This document shows, in pieces, positions 5,466-11,723 of a DNA stretch of 64,000 bases. Position numbers and translations under genes: made by a program. This DNA is from Thioalkalivibrio sp. ALJ24 (lineage in GTDB: Bacteria > Pseudomonadota > Gammaproteobacteria > Ectothiorhodospirales > Ectothiorhodospiraceae). Position 1 is the stretch's first letter. Each line of letters begins with the position of its first letter. The notes beneath the pieces were generated by a model. It saw nothing but the letters and a program-made list of their open reading frames with translations, was not told the DNA's origin and did not search any database. The DNA lies in assembly GCF_000377785.1 (NCBI RefSeq), contig NZ_KB898725.1, positions 1 to 64,000 of the forward strand. The letters run 5' to 3'.

Positions 5466-6327
5466 CCCAGCGGGCACGCAGCCATCCCCTTCGGCGGGGG
5501 CCGGGCGCATCCTGGTCCTGCTCGACGCCTCGCGTGCCAGCCAGGCCGCGCTCGAGGCCGCGGCGACGCTGGCCTCGACGCTGCAGGGCGAACTGCAGGC
5601 GATCTTTGTCGAGGAGGCCGATCTGCTGCGCAGCGCCGCCTTTCCCTTCACCCGCGAGATCGGTTCGCTCTCCGGGCAGCCGCGGCCGCTGGAAACCGGG
5701 CCGCTGGAGACCCGTCTGCGGCGCCGGGCCACCCACCTCCGCCGTGCGGCCGAACAGGCCGCCGCGCGTGCAAAGATCCGCTGCTCGCTCGAGGTCCGGC
5801 GCGGATCGGTGCACCGCGAGGTGCTCGCGCTGACCACCCCCGATGATTTCCTCGTGCTGGGCAAGATCGGATGGTCGGCCGCGACCGGCAGCCGCCTGGG
5901 CTCCACCGCGCGCCGCCTGGTCCATGAAGCCCCGGGACGGGTCCACCTCACCGGAACCCGGCCGACACGTCCCGACAGCCCGGTCCTGGTGGTGGTCGAT
6001 GCCCCGGAGACCGCGCACGAAGCCCTCGCCTTCGCCCGCGCCCGGGCCCGCCAGCAAAGACGCCCGCTGACCGTGCTGCTCACCCCGCTGGACGATCCTA
6101 ACGCCGCGCGGGAGCGGGACCGGGGCCTGAGCGAGTGGATCGCGGCCACCGACCCTCCGGTCCGGGTTCACTCGCTGCGCTCGAGCGCTCCCCGCGAGCT
6201 GCTCCGCGCACTGGAACGTCAGCCGGCAGCCGAAGTGGTGCTCGGCCGCGAGAGCCCGCTGCTGGCCGGCCCGCAGGGCGACACCCTGCTCGGGGCTCTC
6301 GAGCCCCCGGTCACGATTACCCCATAG
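5458..6327 (+). CDS. Tandem universal stress protein (UspA superfamily)
   Basis: This 289-residue cytoplasmic protein has two UspA-like alpha/beta halves. Residues 17-150 begin GRILVLLDASRASQAALEAA. Residues about 175-285 begin with PVLVVVDAPETAHEALAFAR. The canonical ATP-binding G-2x-G-9x-G(S/T) motif is not obvious in either half, so nucleotide binding is uncertain. Its ATG lies inside the last codons of the Lon-like gene (8-bp overlap), which argues for co-expression and a shared stress role. Usp proteins generally support survival under starvation or damage; the specific role here is unknown. Confidence 0.82.
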   Translation: MTDPAGTQPSPSAGAGRILVLLDASRASQAALEAAATLASTLQGELQAIFVEEADLLRSAAFPFTREIGSLSGQPRPLETGPLETRLRRRATHLRRAAEQAAARAKIRCSLEVRRGSVHREVLALTTPDDFLVLGKIGWSAATGSRLGSTARRLVHEAPGRVHLTGTRPTRPDSPVLVVVDAPETAHEALAFARARARQQRRPLTVLLTPLDDPNAARERDRGLSEWIAATDPPVRVHSLRSSAPRELLRALERQPAAEVVLGRESPLLAGPQGDTLLGALEPPVTITP

Positions 6328-8425: not shown

Positions 8426-9189
8426 ACGCCCTCGACCAGACCCTCGCGCTGGCCTGGCGCAGCCTGGTGCAGGTGCGCCGCAACCCCTGGGAGCTGGGGG
8501 ATTACTCCATCCAGCCGATCCTGTTTCTGGTGCTGTTCCTGTTCGTGTTCGGCGGGGCCATCGCCGGCTCACCGGATGACTACCTCGCCTTCGTGCTGCC
8601 GGGCGTGATCGTGATGAACATGCTGTTCGTCACGGTGTATGTCGGCCACGGCCTCAACACCGACCTGACCCGCGGGGTGTTCGACCGCTTCCGCGCCCTG
8701 CCCATCCCGCGCTGGGCGCCGCTGGCCGGGCGCATCCTCGCGGACGTAGTGAAGCAGGTGCTGTGCATCGGCCTGCTGCTGATCGTGGGCTACCTGCTGG
8801 GCTTCCGTCTGGCCACCTCCTTCGGCCATCTGCTGGTCATGGTGCTGCTGGTGCTGACCTTCGCGGTGGCGTTCTCCTGGGTGATGGTGCTGGTCGGCGT
8901 GCTCGCGCGCGACCCGGAACACGTGCAGCTGTTCGGCTTCACCGCGCTGTTCCCGGTCACGTTCGTCAGCTCGGCGTTTGTCCCGGTGGAGACCATGCCC
9001 GAGTGGCTGCAGGGCTTCGTCCAGGCCAACCCGGTGTCACTCCTGACCGAGGCCGCCCGCGGGCTGATGAACGCCGACGGGGCGGTCGCGGCCCCGGCGC
9101 TCGCATCGCTGGCCTGGGCGGCGGGGATCGCGGCGGTGTTCGCGCCGTTGTCCGTATGGGTGCTCAACCGCCGGCTGGCGCGCGGCTGA
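8422..9189 (+). CDS. ABC-2 type transporter permease, DrrB-like
   Basis: This 255-residue inner-membrane permease starts MNALDQTLALAWRSLVQVRR. It has six hydrophobic segments (around residues 27-47, 55-75, 105-130, 135-160, 168-185 and 225-248) and the ABC-2 layout. The start ATG overlaps the ATPase stop as ATGA, giving strict coupling with the upstream DrrA-like subunit. The pair should form a two-subunit half-transporter dimer that exports a hydrophobic compound. The substrate is unknown. Confidence 0.92.
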   Translation: MNALDQTLALAWRSLVQVRRNPWELGDYSIQPILFLVLFLFVFGGAIAGSPDDYLAFVLPGVIVMNMLFVTVYVGHGLNTDLTRGVFDRFRALPIPRWAPLAGRILADVVKQVLCIGLLLIVGYLLGFRLATSFGHLLVMVLLVLTFAVAFSWVMVLVGVLARDPEHVQLFGFTALFPVTFVSSAFVPVETMPEWLQGFVQANPVSLLTEAARGLMNADGAVAAPALASLAWAAGIAAVFAPLSVWVLNRRLARG

Positions 9190-9224
9190 ACCCCGGCGGG
9201 CGCTACGCCCGCAGCCGTCTGCAC

Positions 9225-9256
9225 AAAAAAAAGGCCGCCGCACGGATGCGACGGCC
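9225..9256 (-). terminator. Rho-independent terminator of the TetR-DsrE-DsrE operon
   Basis: Read on the minus strand, a 10-bp stem with one G-T wobble (GGCCGTCGCA / TGCGGCGGCC, 4-base loop) at 9233-9256 is followed directly by eight T residues. It lies 30 bases past the stop of the last DsrE gene. It may also attenuate transcripts from the convergent ABC genes. Confidence 0.85.
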
Positions 9257-9286
9257 CAAAGGCCCCGTGTGATGGGGTGTGCGGGT

Positions 9287-9793
9287 TCAGTAGACGGGCA
9301 CCAGCGCGTAGCCCTGGTTCTGATAGCCCATCACCGCGATGAATCCGCTGCGCACGACGTTGATCGGCTCCAGGATCGTGTCGTTGTCCACGCCATAGGC
9401 CTGCGTGGCCGCGGCGCAGACTTCCATCTGCACGCCCAGCTCATCCAGCCGGTCCACCGCCTTCGCGATCTCCTCCAGGGTCTCCGCGTGGTCGATGTCG
9501 ACCTCCGGCTCCGGATCGGTGGTGATGAACTTGACCGCCTCGGCGATGAACACCATGCGCAGATCGGGCTCCACGCCCTCCTTGAGCAGGTTCTCGTGGT
9601 TGGTGGCGATCCCGCGCAGGTACGCCAGCATCACGTCCGGATCGGATTTGCGCATATCGTAGACCGCACGCATGGTCTCGATGCCCTGGGTCGCCTCGCG
9701 GTTGTCCAGGCCCTCGTCGTCGGCGACCGCGGGCACGGCCAGGCCAAGCGGCAGGACGCATGCGAAAAAGATGCTCATTATGGTTTTTTTCAT
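9287..9793 (-). CDS. Exported DsrE/DsrF-like family protein (copy 1)
   Basis: This 168-residue protein has a signal peptide (1-24, AVPAVA then DDEG), so it should act in the periplasm. The mature part has the DsrE-like fold pattern: an early MRAVYDMRKSDP strand-loop, a central PDLRMVFIAEAVKFI strand-helix and a single cysteine, Cys126, in VQMEVCAAAT, where sulfur-carrier members carry their active cysteine. It ends GYQNQGYALVPVY. The second gene of the operon encodes a clear paralogue with the same tail. GGAGGAG precedes the start. DsrE-fold proteins often carry sulfur or bind small ligands; the periplasmic versions are poorly understood. Confidence 0.85.
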   Translation of the reverse strand: MKKTIMSIFFACVLPLGLAVPAVADDEGLDNREATQGIETMRAVYDMRKSDPDVMLAYLRGIATNHENLLKEGVEPDLRMVFIAEAVKFITTDPEPEVDIDHAETLEEIAKAVDRLDELGVQMEVCAAATQAYGVDNDTILEPINVVRSGFIAVMGYQNQGYALVPVY

Positions 9794-9835
9794 CGATTTC
9801 TCCTCCTGGTGGTTTTCCGGCTTCCGCTACCGGTC

Positions 9836-10348
9836 TCAGTAGATCGGGATCACCGCGTAGCCCTGCGCCTGATACCCGGTCAGCGACACGAAGGTGTTGC
9901 GCACCGGCTCGATGCCGGGAAGCAGCTCGCCGTGATCCACGTCGAACAGGCGCGTGGCCACCGAACAGGCCTCCATCCGCACGCCCTTCTCGCGCAGCGC
10001 TTCGAGGTGTTCTTCGACCGCATCCAGATGGTCGAACTCGGTCAGTTCGAACCGTTCGCGGTCCTCGCTGACCATGGTCACCGCGTGGCCGCGGAAGGTC
10101 AGGATGATGTCCGGCTCCACGCCCTGGTCGGTGAAGTCCTCGTGGGTCTCGCGGATCACCATCAGGTACAGCGCCAGCCCCTCGGGGTCGCTGTTGTTGA
10201 GATCGAACACCACGCGCCCGGTCTCGACGCCCTCCAGCGCCTTCGCGTCGGTGGGTTCGGCGCCGGCTTCGTCGGCGGACACGGTCAGCGCCGGCCAGGC
10301 GGCCAGCGACAGCAGCAAAGGCAGTACGGCCATTCTTTTCATCATCAT
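9836..10348 (-). CDS. Exported DsrE/DsrF-like family protein (copy 2)
   Basis: This 170-residue paralogue of the neighbouring exported DsrE protein has a signal peptide ending near LTVSA (about residue 25). It shares the same landmarks: GRVVFDLNNSDPEGLALYL, PDIILTFRGHAVTMV, a single conserved Cys128 in VRMEACSVAT, and the C-terminal GYQAQGYAVIPIY. The start could be any of three consecutive ATGs at 10348-10340. The first is used because it overlaps the tetR stop by 4 bp (ATGA). It is the middle gene of tetR-dsrE-dsrE and should be repressed with it. Ligand or sulfur-transfer partner is unknown. Confidence 0.85.
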   Translation of the reverse strand: MMMKRMAVLPLLLSLAAWPALTVSADEAGAEPTDAKALEGVETGRVVFDLNNSDPEGLALYLMVIRETHEDFTDQGVEPDIILTFRGHAVTMVSEDRERFELTEFDHLDAVEEHLEALREKGVRMEACSVATRLFDVDHGELLPGIEPVRNTFVSLTGYQAQGYAVIPIY

Positions 10349-10971
10349 GCGTTCTCCCGGGTGGTGTTGCGAGGCGGATCCATCGCAATCGCCCGCCATG
10401 CCGCCTCCTGCATGTCGGGCAAAAAGTCGGACAGGGGCCGGTCCAGCACGCCGTCGAGGTACAGGTGCAGCAGGCGGATGGCACCGCCGAAGGCCACGGT
10501 GGCCGCCACCGGCACCTCCATCGGCCGCACCTCGCCGGCCGCCATCCCCTGCTCGATGCATTCGCGCATGCGCTGGAACGGCTGCGACGAACACACCGGC
10601 GGTTCATCCGGCAGGAACTCCCGGTGACGGGACTCCAGCACGAAGCGCATGGTCTGCGGGGACTGTGCGGTGGCGTCGAACAGAAAGGCGATGATCCCGT
10701 CGCAGCGCGCGCGGCAGTCCTGACCCTCTTCCATCACCTGCTGCAGTCCGGCGTCCATGCGCTGCAGCAGGTCGTCATACAACGCCTTGGCCAGGGCCTC
10801 CTTGTTGCCGAAGTGGTGATAGATCGAACCGATCGACACCCCGGCCTGGCGACGGATGTCGTGAATGGAAGTATTGAAATAGCCGTCGGCGCTGAAGCGC
10901 TCCAGGGCGGTGTCCAGCACCAGCTTGCGCAGGGTCTCCCCGCGTACGGCCTTTCCGGGACTGGCGGTCAT
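10345..10971 (-). CDS. TetR family transcriptional repressor
   Basis: This 208-residue regulator has an N-terminal TetR helix-turn-helix: LDTALERFSADGYFNTSIHD followed by RRQAGVSIGSIYHHFGNKEAL (about residues 18-59). The helical ligand-binding domain after it has no obvious ligand signature. The stop overlaps the start of the first exported DsrE gene by 4 bp, so regulator and targets form one transcript. A perfect 14-bp palindrome 15 bases upstream of the start is the likely autoregulatory operator. The inducer is unknown; a sulfur or thiol compound would fit the DsrE genes but is speculation. Confidence 0.93.
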   Translation of the reverse strand: MTASPGKAVRGETLRKLVLDTALERFSADGYFNTSIHDIRRQAGVSIGSIYHHFGNKEALAKALYDDLLQRMDAGLQQVMEEGQDCRARCDGIIAFLFDATAQSPQTMRFVLESRHREFLPDEPPVCSSQPFQRMRECIEQGMAAGEVRPMEVPVAATVAFGGAIRLLHLYLDGVLDRPLSDFLPDMQEAAWRAIAMDPPRNTTRENA

Positions 10972-10985
10972 CGAGGCCTCACTAA

Positions 10986-10999
10986 AACGAACGTTCGTT
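10986..10999. promoter_or_regulatory. Palindromic TetR operator
   Basis: The perfect palindrome AACGAACGTTCGTT lies 15 bp upstream of the TetR start codon. A TAGATT -10-like hexamer lies just upstream of it on the minus strand, so bound repressor would cover the transcription start. The position and symmetry are typical of TetR autoregulation. Confidence 0.75.
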
Positions 11000-11043
11000 C
11001 TAATCTACACCCGCAATGCACCGGGGGAAAGACCCGCCCCGGC

Positions 11044-11334
11044 TCAGCCAGTGGTAAAGCGCTCCGGCGGCGGCTGCGGGACCGCGACGTCCTCGGCCTG
11101 CAGGTCATCCACCCGGGCCTGGCGCGGGCCCTCCTGCAGCCATGCGCCGAGCCGGTCGAGGGCCTCGGGCGAGCCCACCGCCAGCACCTCCACGCTGCCG
11201 TCGGGGAGATTGCGGGCATGGCCGGTCAGGCCCAGCGGGCGCGCCTGTTTCTGCGTCGAGGCGCGGAAGAACACGCCCTGCACCCGGCCGCTGACACGCC
11301 AGCGGCGGGCCCGGTTATCATTGGCCTCAGTCAT
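11044..11334 (-). CDS. acyP: Acylphosphatase
   Basis: This 96-residue cytosolic enzyme hydrolyses acyl-phosphate bonds. It shows the family signature GRVQGVFFRAST with catalytic Arg24 and the second block GLTGHARNLPDGSVEV with catalytic Asn42. Length is typical (about 90-100). The start MTEANDN at 11334 is used because GGTGAAGG precedes it. The gene is divergent from arsC, with 26 bases between the starts, so their promoters must overlap or lie within the neighbouring coding regions. Confidence 0.93.
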   Translation of the reverse strand: MTEANDNRARRWRVSGRVQGVFFRASTQKQARPLGLTGHARNLPDGSVEVLAVGSPEALDRLGAWLQEGPRQARVDDLQAEDVAVPQPPPERFTTG

Positions 11335-11360
11335 GAATCCTTCACCTCCGGAGTCCGTGC

Positions 11361-11723
11361 ATGTCCGAATCGCCACGCCCTACGCTGTACCACAACCCGC
11401 GCTGCAGCAAGTCCCGCGCCGCGCTGGCCCTGCTGCGTGAACGCGACATCGAGCCGGAGATCGTGGAATACCTGAAGACCCCGCCGGATGCCGACACCCT
11501 GCGTGCAATCCTCGCCCGCCTGGGCCTGGGCCCGCGGGATGTCCTGCGCACCGGCGAGGCCGAATACCGCGAACTGGGCCTGAAGGACGCCGAGCTGGAC
11601 GACGAGGCGCTGATCCGGACCATGGTCGAACACCCGAAACTGATCGAACGCCCGATCCTGATCCACGGCGACGCCGCACGCATCGGCCGGCCGCCCGAAC
11701 AGATCCTGGAGATCCTCCCGTGA
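11361..11723 (+). CDS. arsC: Arsenate reductase, glutaredoxin-coupled ArsC/YfgD family
   Basis: This 120-residue thioredoxin-fold protein has the ArsC active-site loop YHNPRCSKSRAAL, with the single redox Cys15, and a C-terminal ERPILIHGDAARIGRPPEQIL block that matches the YfgD/ArsC branch. Classical ArsC reduces arsenate to arsenite with glutathione and glutaredoxin. YfgD-type members are less well characterised, and no arsenite pump or ArsR regulator is nearby, so arsenate detoxification is not certain. The stop overlaps wrbA as GTGA, making arsC the first gene of a three-gene coupled operon. Confidence 0.85.
   Translation: MSESPRPTLYHNPRCSKSRAALALLRERDIEPEIVEYLKTPPDADTLRAILARLGLGPRDVLRTGEAEYRELGLKDAELDDEALIRTMVEHPKLIERPILIHGDAARIGRPPEQILEILP

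Follow-up and report, generated by a model that had tools for sequence, protein, structure and literature searches.

A 20-bp candidate operator, a TetR-family regulator and a DsrE-fold protein form, judging by sequence, a conserved genetic unit, which we describe here from a 64,000-nucleotide stretch of Thioalkalivibrio sp. ALJ24 (the window) and from its relatives in two phyla. Gene order, the operator itself, the co-occurrence of operator, regulator and target, and the conservation of cysteines are observed at the sequence level; protein folds are predicted. Since a TetR protein with a near-invariant cysteine stands beside DsrE genes, behind the same site, in many bacteria of the sulfur cycle, its probable role is to switch on sulfur handling as reactive sulfur accumulates. 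For the operon in the window we lean towards an autoregulated system in which reactive sulfur at Cys127 would release the TetR repressor and exported DsrE proteins would carry sulfur in the periplasm.

The operon lies on the minus strand, where genes for a TetR-family regulator of 208 aa (10345-10971; PF00440, PF16295 and predicted fold), DsrE-A of 170 aa (9836-10348; PF02635) and DsrE-B of 168 aa (9287-9793; PF02635 and an AlphaFold2 DsrE fold) follow one another head to tail. The TetR stop codon overlaps the first start codon of DsrE-A in a shared ATGA, and all three proteins have Pfam matches, bearing out the TetR-DsrE-DsrE unit with a 4-bp overlap given in a preliminary description. The terminator said to close the unit was also found: the hairpin/terminator scan gave, at 9232-9257 of the minus strand, an intrinsic-terminator-like hairpin with 11 pairs and a T-run behind it. 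Upstream of TetR is the candidate operator (10983-11002, given without strand), which reads TAGAACGAACGTTCGTTTTA on the minus strand and contains a perfect 14-bp palindrome, AACGAACGTTCGTT, at 10986-10999. The same description placed this palindrome at the transcription start. The palindrome stands and the placement does not: it sits 15–28 nt upstream of the TetR start codon, and a promoter scan of 9150-11400 found no sigma-70-like promoter.

By eye, the remaining genes of the window resemble ordinary core-genome genes, and no tRNA and no RNA family at gathering threshold was found in the window; the case therefore rests on relatives. A transposase-orfA-like fragment, recognised by eye, lies at the window edge (3-191). 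Elsewhere in the host genome (2.8 Mb in 20 contigs) a DsrE3-like gene is flanked by two GcvH/lipoate-binding-like genes (L001, 1029-2361), by eye an sHdr-type sulfur-oxidation cluster. The palindrome AACGAACGTTCGTT is the sole place in the window at ≤2 mismatches (0.05 expected) and has no other perfect copy in its own genome. A wider regulon in that genome is not supported, the one perfect site and two 2-mismatch places being no more than a reversed control yielded.

The regulator matches PF00440 with 55.2 bits (cut-off 24), and thus has the TetR_N domain, and PF16295 (TetR_C_10) with 31.6 bits (cut-off 28); none of the NCBIfam TetR equivalogs reaches its cut-off for this protein (best, 58.3 of 150 bits). 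Its AlphaFold2 model (pLDDT 89.7) predicts an all-helical two-domain TetR fold, for which the structures 2gen (Z 19.4, rmsd 2.4, 183 aligned residues, 27% identity) and 3whc, FadR of Bacillus (Z 19.2, rmsd 2.2, 183 aligned), are tied matches.

A search of 58 genomes revealed 18 near-full-length DsrE-B genes at ≥80% identity, our own included, all of them within Thioalkalivibrio, besides fragments in three genomes (G016, G017, G018). TetR, DsrE-A, DsrE-B and the palindrome (0–1 mismatch of 14) occur together in 15 of these 18 loci. In the other three (L021, L023, L029) TetR and palindrome were not found and DsrE-A is degenerate. Within the genus, a check for absence of the pair in relatives found it kept with TetR in those 15 loci. 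Of 30 genomes of the genus, 15 have a TetR match at E ≤1e-35; the window protein is 96% identical to its counterpart in T. halophilus HL17, which is its nearest row in the tree. The DsrE cysteine is kept in 20/20 DsrE-B rows, two of which are the same G055 gene, and in 17/17 DsrE-A rows, two of which are degenerate copies. Across species the cassette stands in different gene neighbourhoods, which suggests that it has moved between genomic places. G029 has a decayed cassette (L060, 4658-5153) in which TetR and DsrE survive as remnants (65 and 81.5 bits), with an operator at 4 mismatches. Several Thioalkalivibrio also encode, no more than a few kb from the cassette or from what is left of it, a protein resembling rhodanese and a SoxH-like metallohydrolase at scores under the NCBIfam cut-offs (L063, 3868-5178; homologues in L060, L064 and L065).

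When a six-row TetR alignment was scanned against genomes representing 84,980 species, 116 relatives turned up, and the best 80 of them form the set used here. Among these best 80, members occur in Proteobacteria and Desulfobacterota, and at least 46 of the 80 record titles, counted by hand, name sulfur-oxidising or sulfate/sulfur-reducing groups (Thioalkalivibrio, Thiobacillus, Parasulfuritortus, Sedimenticola, Thiodiazotropha, Desulfocapsa, Desulfoluna, Desulfogranum, Desulfuromusa and others). The remaining carriers are unclassified MAGs or bear other names, such as Ferrimonas, Lautropia, Advenella, Magnetovibrio and Burkholderiaceae; all of these except Magnetovibrio are carriers without known sulfur-bacterial status and speak against our main reading.

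Genes in these loci were called with a codon-usage caller that missed some of them, several TetR genes included; DsrE genes were therefore counted on six-frame ORFs with profiles made from first-round neighbours. This count, which may miss distant DsrE (compare the weak matches in L145), gave 67 DsrE genes with ≥100 bits in the loci of the best 80 of 116 relatives (753 kb), and all 67 lie ≤1 kb downstream of TetR on the same strand. Where at least 1200 nt of downstream sequence was available, DsrE directly follows TetR in 50 of 75 loci, or in 37 of 62 once the 13 Thioalkalivibrio loci (L068-L080) are left out; the 25 of 75 without an adjacent DsrE, likewise among the best 80 of 116, weigh against the main reading. 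Two exported DsrE genes were seen only in those 13 Thioalkalivibrio loci and in a Desulfuromonas MAG (L118), the other loci of the best 80 of 116 having one exported DsrE, DsrE with TusA, or neither. The DsrE pair was accordingly ruled out as the conserved core and is typical of Thioalkalivibrio.

Target genes vary with the branch of the regulator. Of the 67 DsrE genes in the loci of the best 80 of 116, 57 are of the exported and 10 of the cytoplasmic type, and each of the latter (10/10) is followed by TusA. In G002 and G036 the genes behind a subfamily TetR are cytoplasmic DsrE and TusA, and two operators are present; both versions are thus present in G002. An exported-type rhodanese follows DsrE in L092. 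Among loci without DsrE, four (L093, L134, L135, L141) have CoA-disulfide-reductase-like enzymes, those of L093 and L134 scoring 215 and 232 of 578.8 bits and so not being CoA-disulfide reductase by cut-off; others have an FMN reductase (L089) or a cytochrome-c-like protein (L097; 24.6 of 27 bits). Target types cluster on the TetR tree (21 changes vs 35.5 in shuffles; 0/200 shuffles as low), a tree with 23 open branches among its 79 inner ones and with some long branches. The sulfur role advanced earlier for the operon gains support from this context of DsrE with TusA, exported rhodanese, CoA-disulfide-reductase-like loci and many sulfur-bacterial carriers.

Several loci hold further genes of note. 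A small cysteine-rich protein lies between TetR and the exported DsrE, or in place of DsrE, in five of them (L042, 6519-6752; L101, L105, L109, L119); that of L042 has no Pfam match. In L042 (G055) a cytoplasmic-type DsrE between TetR and TusA (5848-6262) has an in-frame TAG at codon 83, which is not the conserved cysteine, and its frame is open past the TAG to the usual end. In two distant genomes (L043, 6429-8148; L048, 5324-7166) an exported DsrE without TetR or operator adjoins, by eye, a gene resembling PLP enzymes of Cys/Met metabolism.

A sister clade of four loci (L098, L117, L125, L140) differs in its target: methanethiol oxidase adjoins TetR in three of them (L098, L117, L140), the L140 protein scoring 784 bits against a cut-off of 650 and the L098 and L117 copies clustering with it. 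It is possible that TetR of this clade regulates methanethiol oxidation. The same loci favour an alternative for the whole subfamily, namely non-covalent sensing by TetR of a small organosulfur molecule (methanethiol or a different thiol), with DsrE removing or shuttling the released sulfur. We consider this improbable, as the methanethiol-oxidase clade is a separate branch and lacks the canonical operator at ≤2 mismatches, and the near-invariance of the cysteine discussed below suggests that chemistry takes place there.

The operator is conserved along with the regulator. Aligned sites have the consensus TAGAACGAACGTTCGTTCTA, and the palindrome was found at ≤2 of 14 mismatches before 66 of the 80 TetR genes whose upstream region could be used (best 80 of 116), a level that first-order Markov shuffles reach in 0.05%. 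The other 14 of these 80 upstream regions, the methanethiol-oxidase clade among them, have no operator at 2 mismatches. When 81 loci (766 kb, the best 80 of 116 included) were scanned at ≤4 of 18 mismatches, 70 sites preceded TetR, 36 followed it closely and 6 lay elsewhere; the last group includes one about 55 nt before DsrE (L124), one before a cytochrome-like gene (L112) and two between a divergent pair of distant DsrE-like genes (L145). A second site at ≤3 mismatches between TetR and DsrE was counted for the 52 loci with adjacent DsrE (best 80 of 116), and its frequency differed with the distance between the genes: 0/13 at gaps of ≤45 nt, all of them Thioalkalivibrio, 18/27 at 46–150 nt and 4/12 at larger gaps. 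By eye, second sites often come after a T-run, which could mark a terminator belonging to TetR itself. In six loci (L042, L102, L103, L107, L116, L138) the operator, again by eye, fills the 17-nt spacer from TTGACT to a TA-rich hexamer, a position suited to repression; the site in the window resembles this arrangement weakly. Conservation and placement of the operator together support well the self-regulation proposed for the operon.

The linkage was also approached from the operator side. An 18-mer searched at ≤1 mismatch in 369 genomes of the class matched in 10 of them, while the reversed control matched in none. At seven of the 10 sites a subfamily TetR and DsrE are present; four of these were already known before the scan (G000, G055, and G325 and G215, the same places as G072 and G069) and three are new (G183, G367, G394). 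The other three have no subfamily TetR, two adjoining weakly similar TetR genes (L173, L180) and one having none (L178). Among 29 TetR genes from eight genomes, all six subfamily members have DsrE and an operator (0–3 mismatches); the 23 others have neither within 3 kb, their best site showing at least 6 mismatches. None of 20 distinct TetR-less loci with a match to the exported-DsrE profile has the operator at ≤4 mismatches.

These results bear on another alternative, an ordinary local TetR repressor with an incidental DsrE neighbourhood and no sulfur signal. TetR autoregulation through a nearby palindrome is commonplace, and two of the three exceptions in the operator-first scan adjoin other TetR-like genes, as this explanation would have it. 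Yet the 23 other TetR genes have neither such a site nor DsrE beside them, the association reaches across two phyla, and a second site stands in front of the target, making an incidental link very improbable. We conclude that control of DsrE by the subfamily TetR through the operator is well supported, as far as genome comparison can carry it.

The window TetR has cysteines at positions 86, 90, 127 and 138. Cys127 belongs to the CSSxPF part of the subfamily motif HxEF..P.CSSxPF and, in the model, sits between a short helix (116-119) and helix 130-144. Conservation was counted in 82 TetRs (the best 80 of 116 relatives, the window protein and that of G055): Cys127 is present in 81, His116 in 81 and Glu118 in all 82, and Cys90 in 53. 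The sole loss of Cys127 among these 82 is in a locus without DsrE (L085). A further cysteine at position 86, 90, 138, 159 or 190 accompanies Cys127 in 76 of the 81 proteins that have it (best 80 of 116 included), and Cys127 stands alone in two full-length members (L125, L140) and in one clipped by a contig end (L123). A strictly conserved TetR dithiol was ruled out by the frequency of Cys90 and by the members with Cys127 alone. Because it is near-invariant, Cys127 is the residue that we infer to be the sensor.

The joint conservation of His116, Glu118 and Cys127 in those 82 TetRs would suit the same circuit with another signal at these residues, a metal, metalloid, oxidant or electrophile, with exported DsrE proteins buffering stress or protecting thiols rather than moving sulfur for energy metabolism. 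Copper-related DUF411 or RND-pump neighbours in five loci (L126, L129, L132, L133, L136) and, by eye, a P-type-ATPase-like and a MerR-like gene upstream in G055 point the same way. According to the accessible text of PMC6620896, DsrE/F-like genes rise or fall in two Thioalkalivibrio species exposed to arsenite, their loci unnamed and their roles open; that of PMC13104084 describes a pocket His116 and Cys122 in the TetR regulator AcuR, which binds DMSP/acrylate. Nevertheless, the targets of the subfamily are sulfurtransferase-type genes and the DUF411 and pump neighbours are restricted to a few clades, so that we regard a metal or electrophile signal as rather unlikely and prefer reactive sulfur.

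Both DsrE proteins of the window match PF02635 (cut-off 22.7), with 47.9 bits for DsrE-B and 30.0 for DsrE-A, which places them in the DsrE family; they are 40% identical to each other and below the DsrE2 cut-off (16.2 of 210 bits). The AlphaFold2 model of DsrE-B (pLDDT 90.3) predicts a DsrE fold and matches ST0148 (Z 17.0), MTH1491 (16.1), YchN (14.3), TusBCD (12.4) and DsrEFH (12.2). Each protein was initially credited with a single cysteine, which holds for the mature parts (Cys126 in DsrE-B; Cys128 in DsrE-A, numbered from the first ATG); DsrE-B has another one in its signal-peptide-like part. A profile match (E 4.9e-6) puts the conserved cysteine opposite one of MTH1491. The same residue is kept in 59/59 exported DsrE proteins (57 from the loci of the best 80 of 116, plus DsrE-A and DsrE-B), as befits an acceptor residue; a check for its loss thus found none. 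The shared C-terminal tail described earlier reads G-Y-Q-x-Q-G-Y-A-x-x-P-x-Y in both proteins, and a GY/W-Q-x-Q/K-G-Y version of it is present in 55 of the 57 exported-type proteins (best 80 of 116 loci). The signal peptides attributed to both are matched by hydrophobic, signal-peptide-like N-termini with Kyte-Doolittle peaks of 2.5 and 2.3. Peaks of the exported type range from 1.81 to 3.37 (median 2.68) and those of the cytoplasmic type from 1.42 to 1.86 (median 1.86); these ranges touch, so export of DsrE-A and DsrE-B to the periplasm is a prediction from their N-termini.

Taken together, the data are consistent with the following scheme. TetR would bind the palindrome at its own promoter as a repressor; in many loci with a separated target gene it would also occupy a second copy in front of that gene. 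Reactive sulfur, as persulfide, polysulfide, thiosulfate/tetrathionate or a related thiol compound, would modify Cys127 of the ligand domain, and in most members a further cysteine (86, 90, 159 or 190) may take part. The modified TetR would leave DNA, and DsrE proteins would be made and exported to the periplasm, where their single cysteine would carry sulfur for onward transfer. DNA binding, repression, export, the ligand and the carrier reaction are the steps that we infer; for the sulfur part, target families, the names of the carriers and DsrE chemistry are suggestive. As to that chemistry, the accessible part of PMC4175335 reports that Metallosphaera DsrE3A takes thiosulfate from tetrathionate on its cysteines and hands it to TusA, and that it is unmodified by polysulfide, GSSH or sulfide; persulfide is thus not the sole candidate cargo. 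Besides this finding and the points named above, the 14 upstream regions without the operator, the three operator-first genomes without a subfamily TetR, the incomplete conservation of Cys90 and the negative promoter scan at the window site count against the scheme.

More broadly, and tentatively, with the chances somewhat short of even, we propose that an undescribed TetR subfamily acts as a reactive-sulfur sensor of sulfur oxidisers and sulfate reducers in two phyla and controls a periplasmic sulfane-sulfur relay of exported DsrE proteins, sister branches using the same 20-bp operator to direct cytoplasmic DsrE-TusA and CoA-disulfide-reductase-like enzymes. With the regulator subfamily, its operator and a named cysteine at hand, sulfur sensing and the role of exported DsrE are open to simple bench tests, and motif and operator allow the circuit to be annotated across Proteobacteria and Desulfobacterota. 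If true, the scheme would offer a sulfur-responsive genetic switch.

The literature searched, which covered few subscription papers, contained neither a TetR-type sulfur sensor nor an exported-DsrE operon, and no assigned role for exported DsrE proteins. Among the papers that mention both TetR and DsrE, three are, in their accessible parts, unrelated to a TetR-DsrE operon (PMC2667191, PMC12016491, PMC5109826). As far as this search goes, TetR and DsrE are known kinds of protein, and their combination, the operator and its spread are new.

The window DsrE proteins share their fold with the cytoplasmic DsrEFH, TusBCD, YchN, MTH1491 and DsrE3A, but differ from them in the signal-peptide-like N-terminus and the GYQxQGYAxxPxY tail. 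Unlike DsrEFH and TusBCD, which are encoded by three adjacent genes (E-F-H or D-C-B), the unit has two DsrE paralogues between TetR and the terminator, without DsrF or DsrH partners. The window TetR, in turn, has the fold of 2gen and FadR of Bacillus (3whc) at low sequence identity and is set apart from both by its CSSxPF motif and sulfur-type targets. Bm3R1 has a GAACGTTC-type operator core akin to the operator of the subfamily.

Repressors of sulfide and sulfane sulfur are of the ArsR type (SqrR, BigR, SoxR, sHdrR), the MarR type or, as CstR, the CsoR type; they have a conserved cysteine as the likely sensor, a feature shared with the subfamily TetR. In the accessible parts of the literature found, those described are of ArsR or MarR type and lie beside sulfur-handling genes, and the window repressor likewise adjoins sulfur-handling genes. 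It lacks the combination of fold and conserved cysteine pair that defines ArsR and CsoR members, which bears on membership and not on working alike. What distinguishes it from the ArsR, CsoR and MarR sensors is a TetR-family protein, one near-invariant cysteine with a varying partner, and a different operator.
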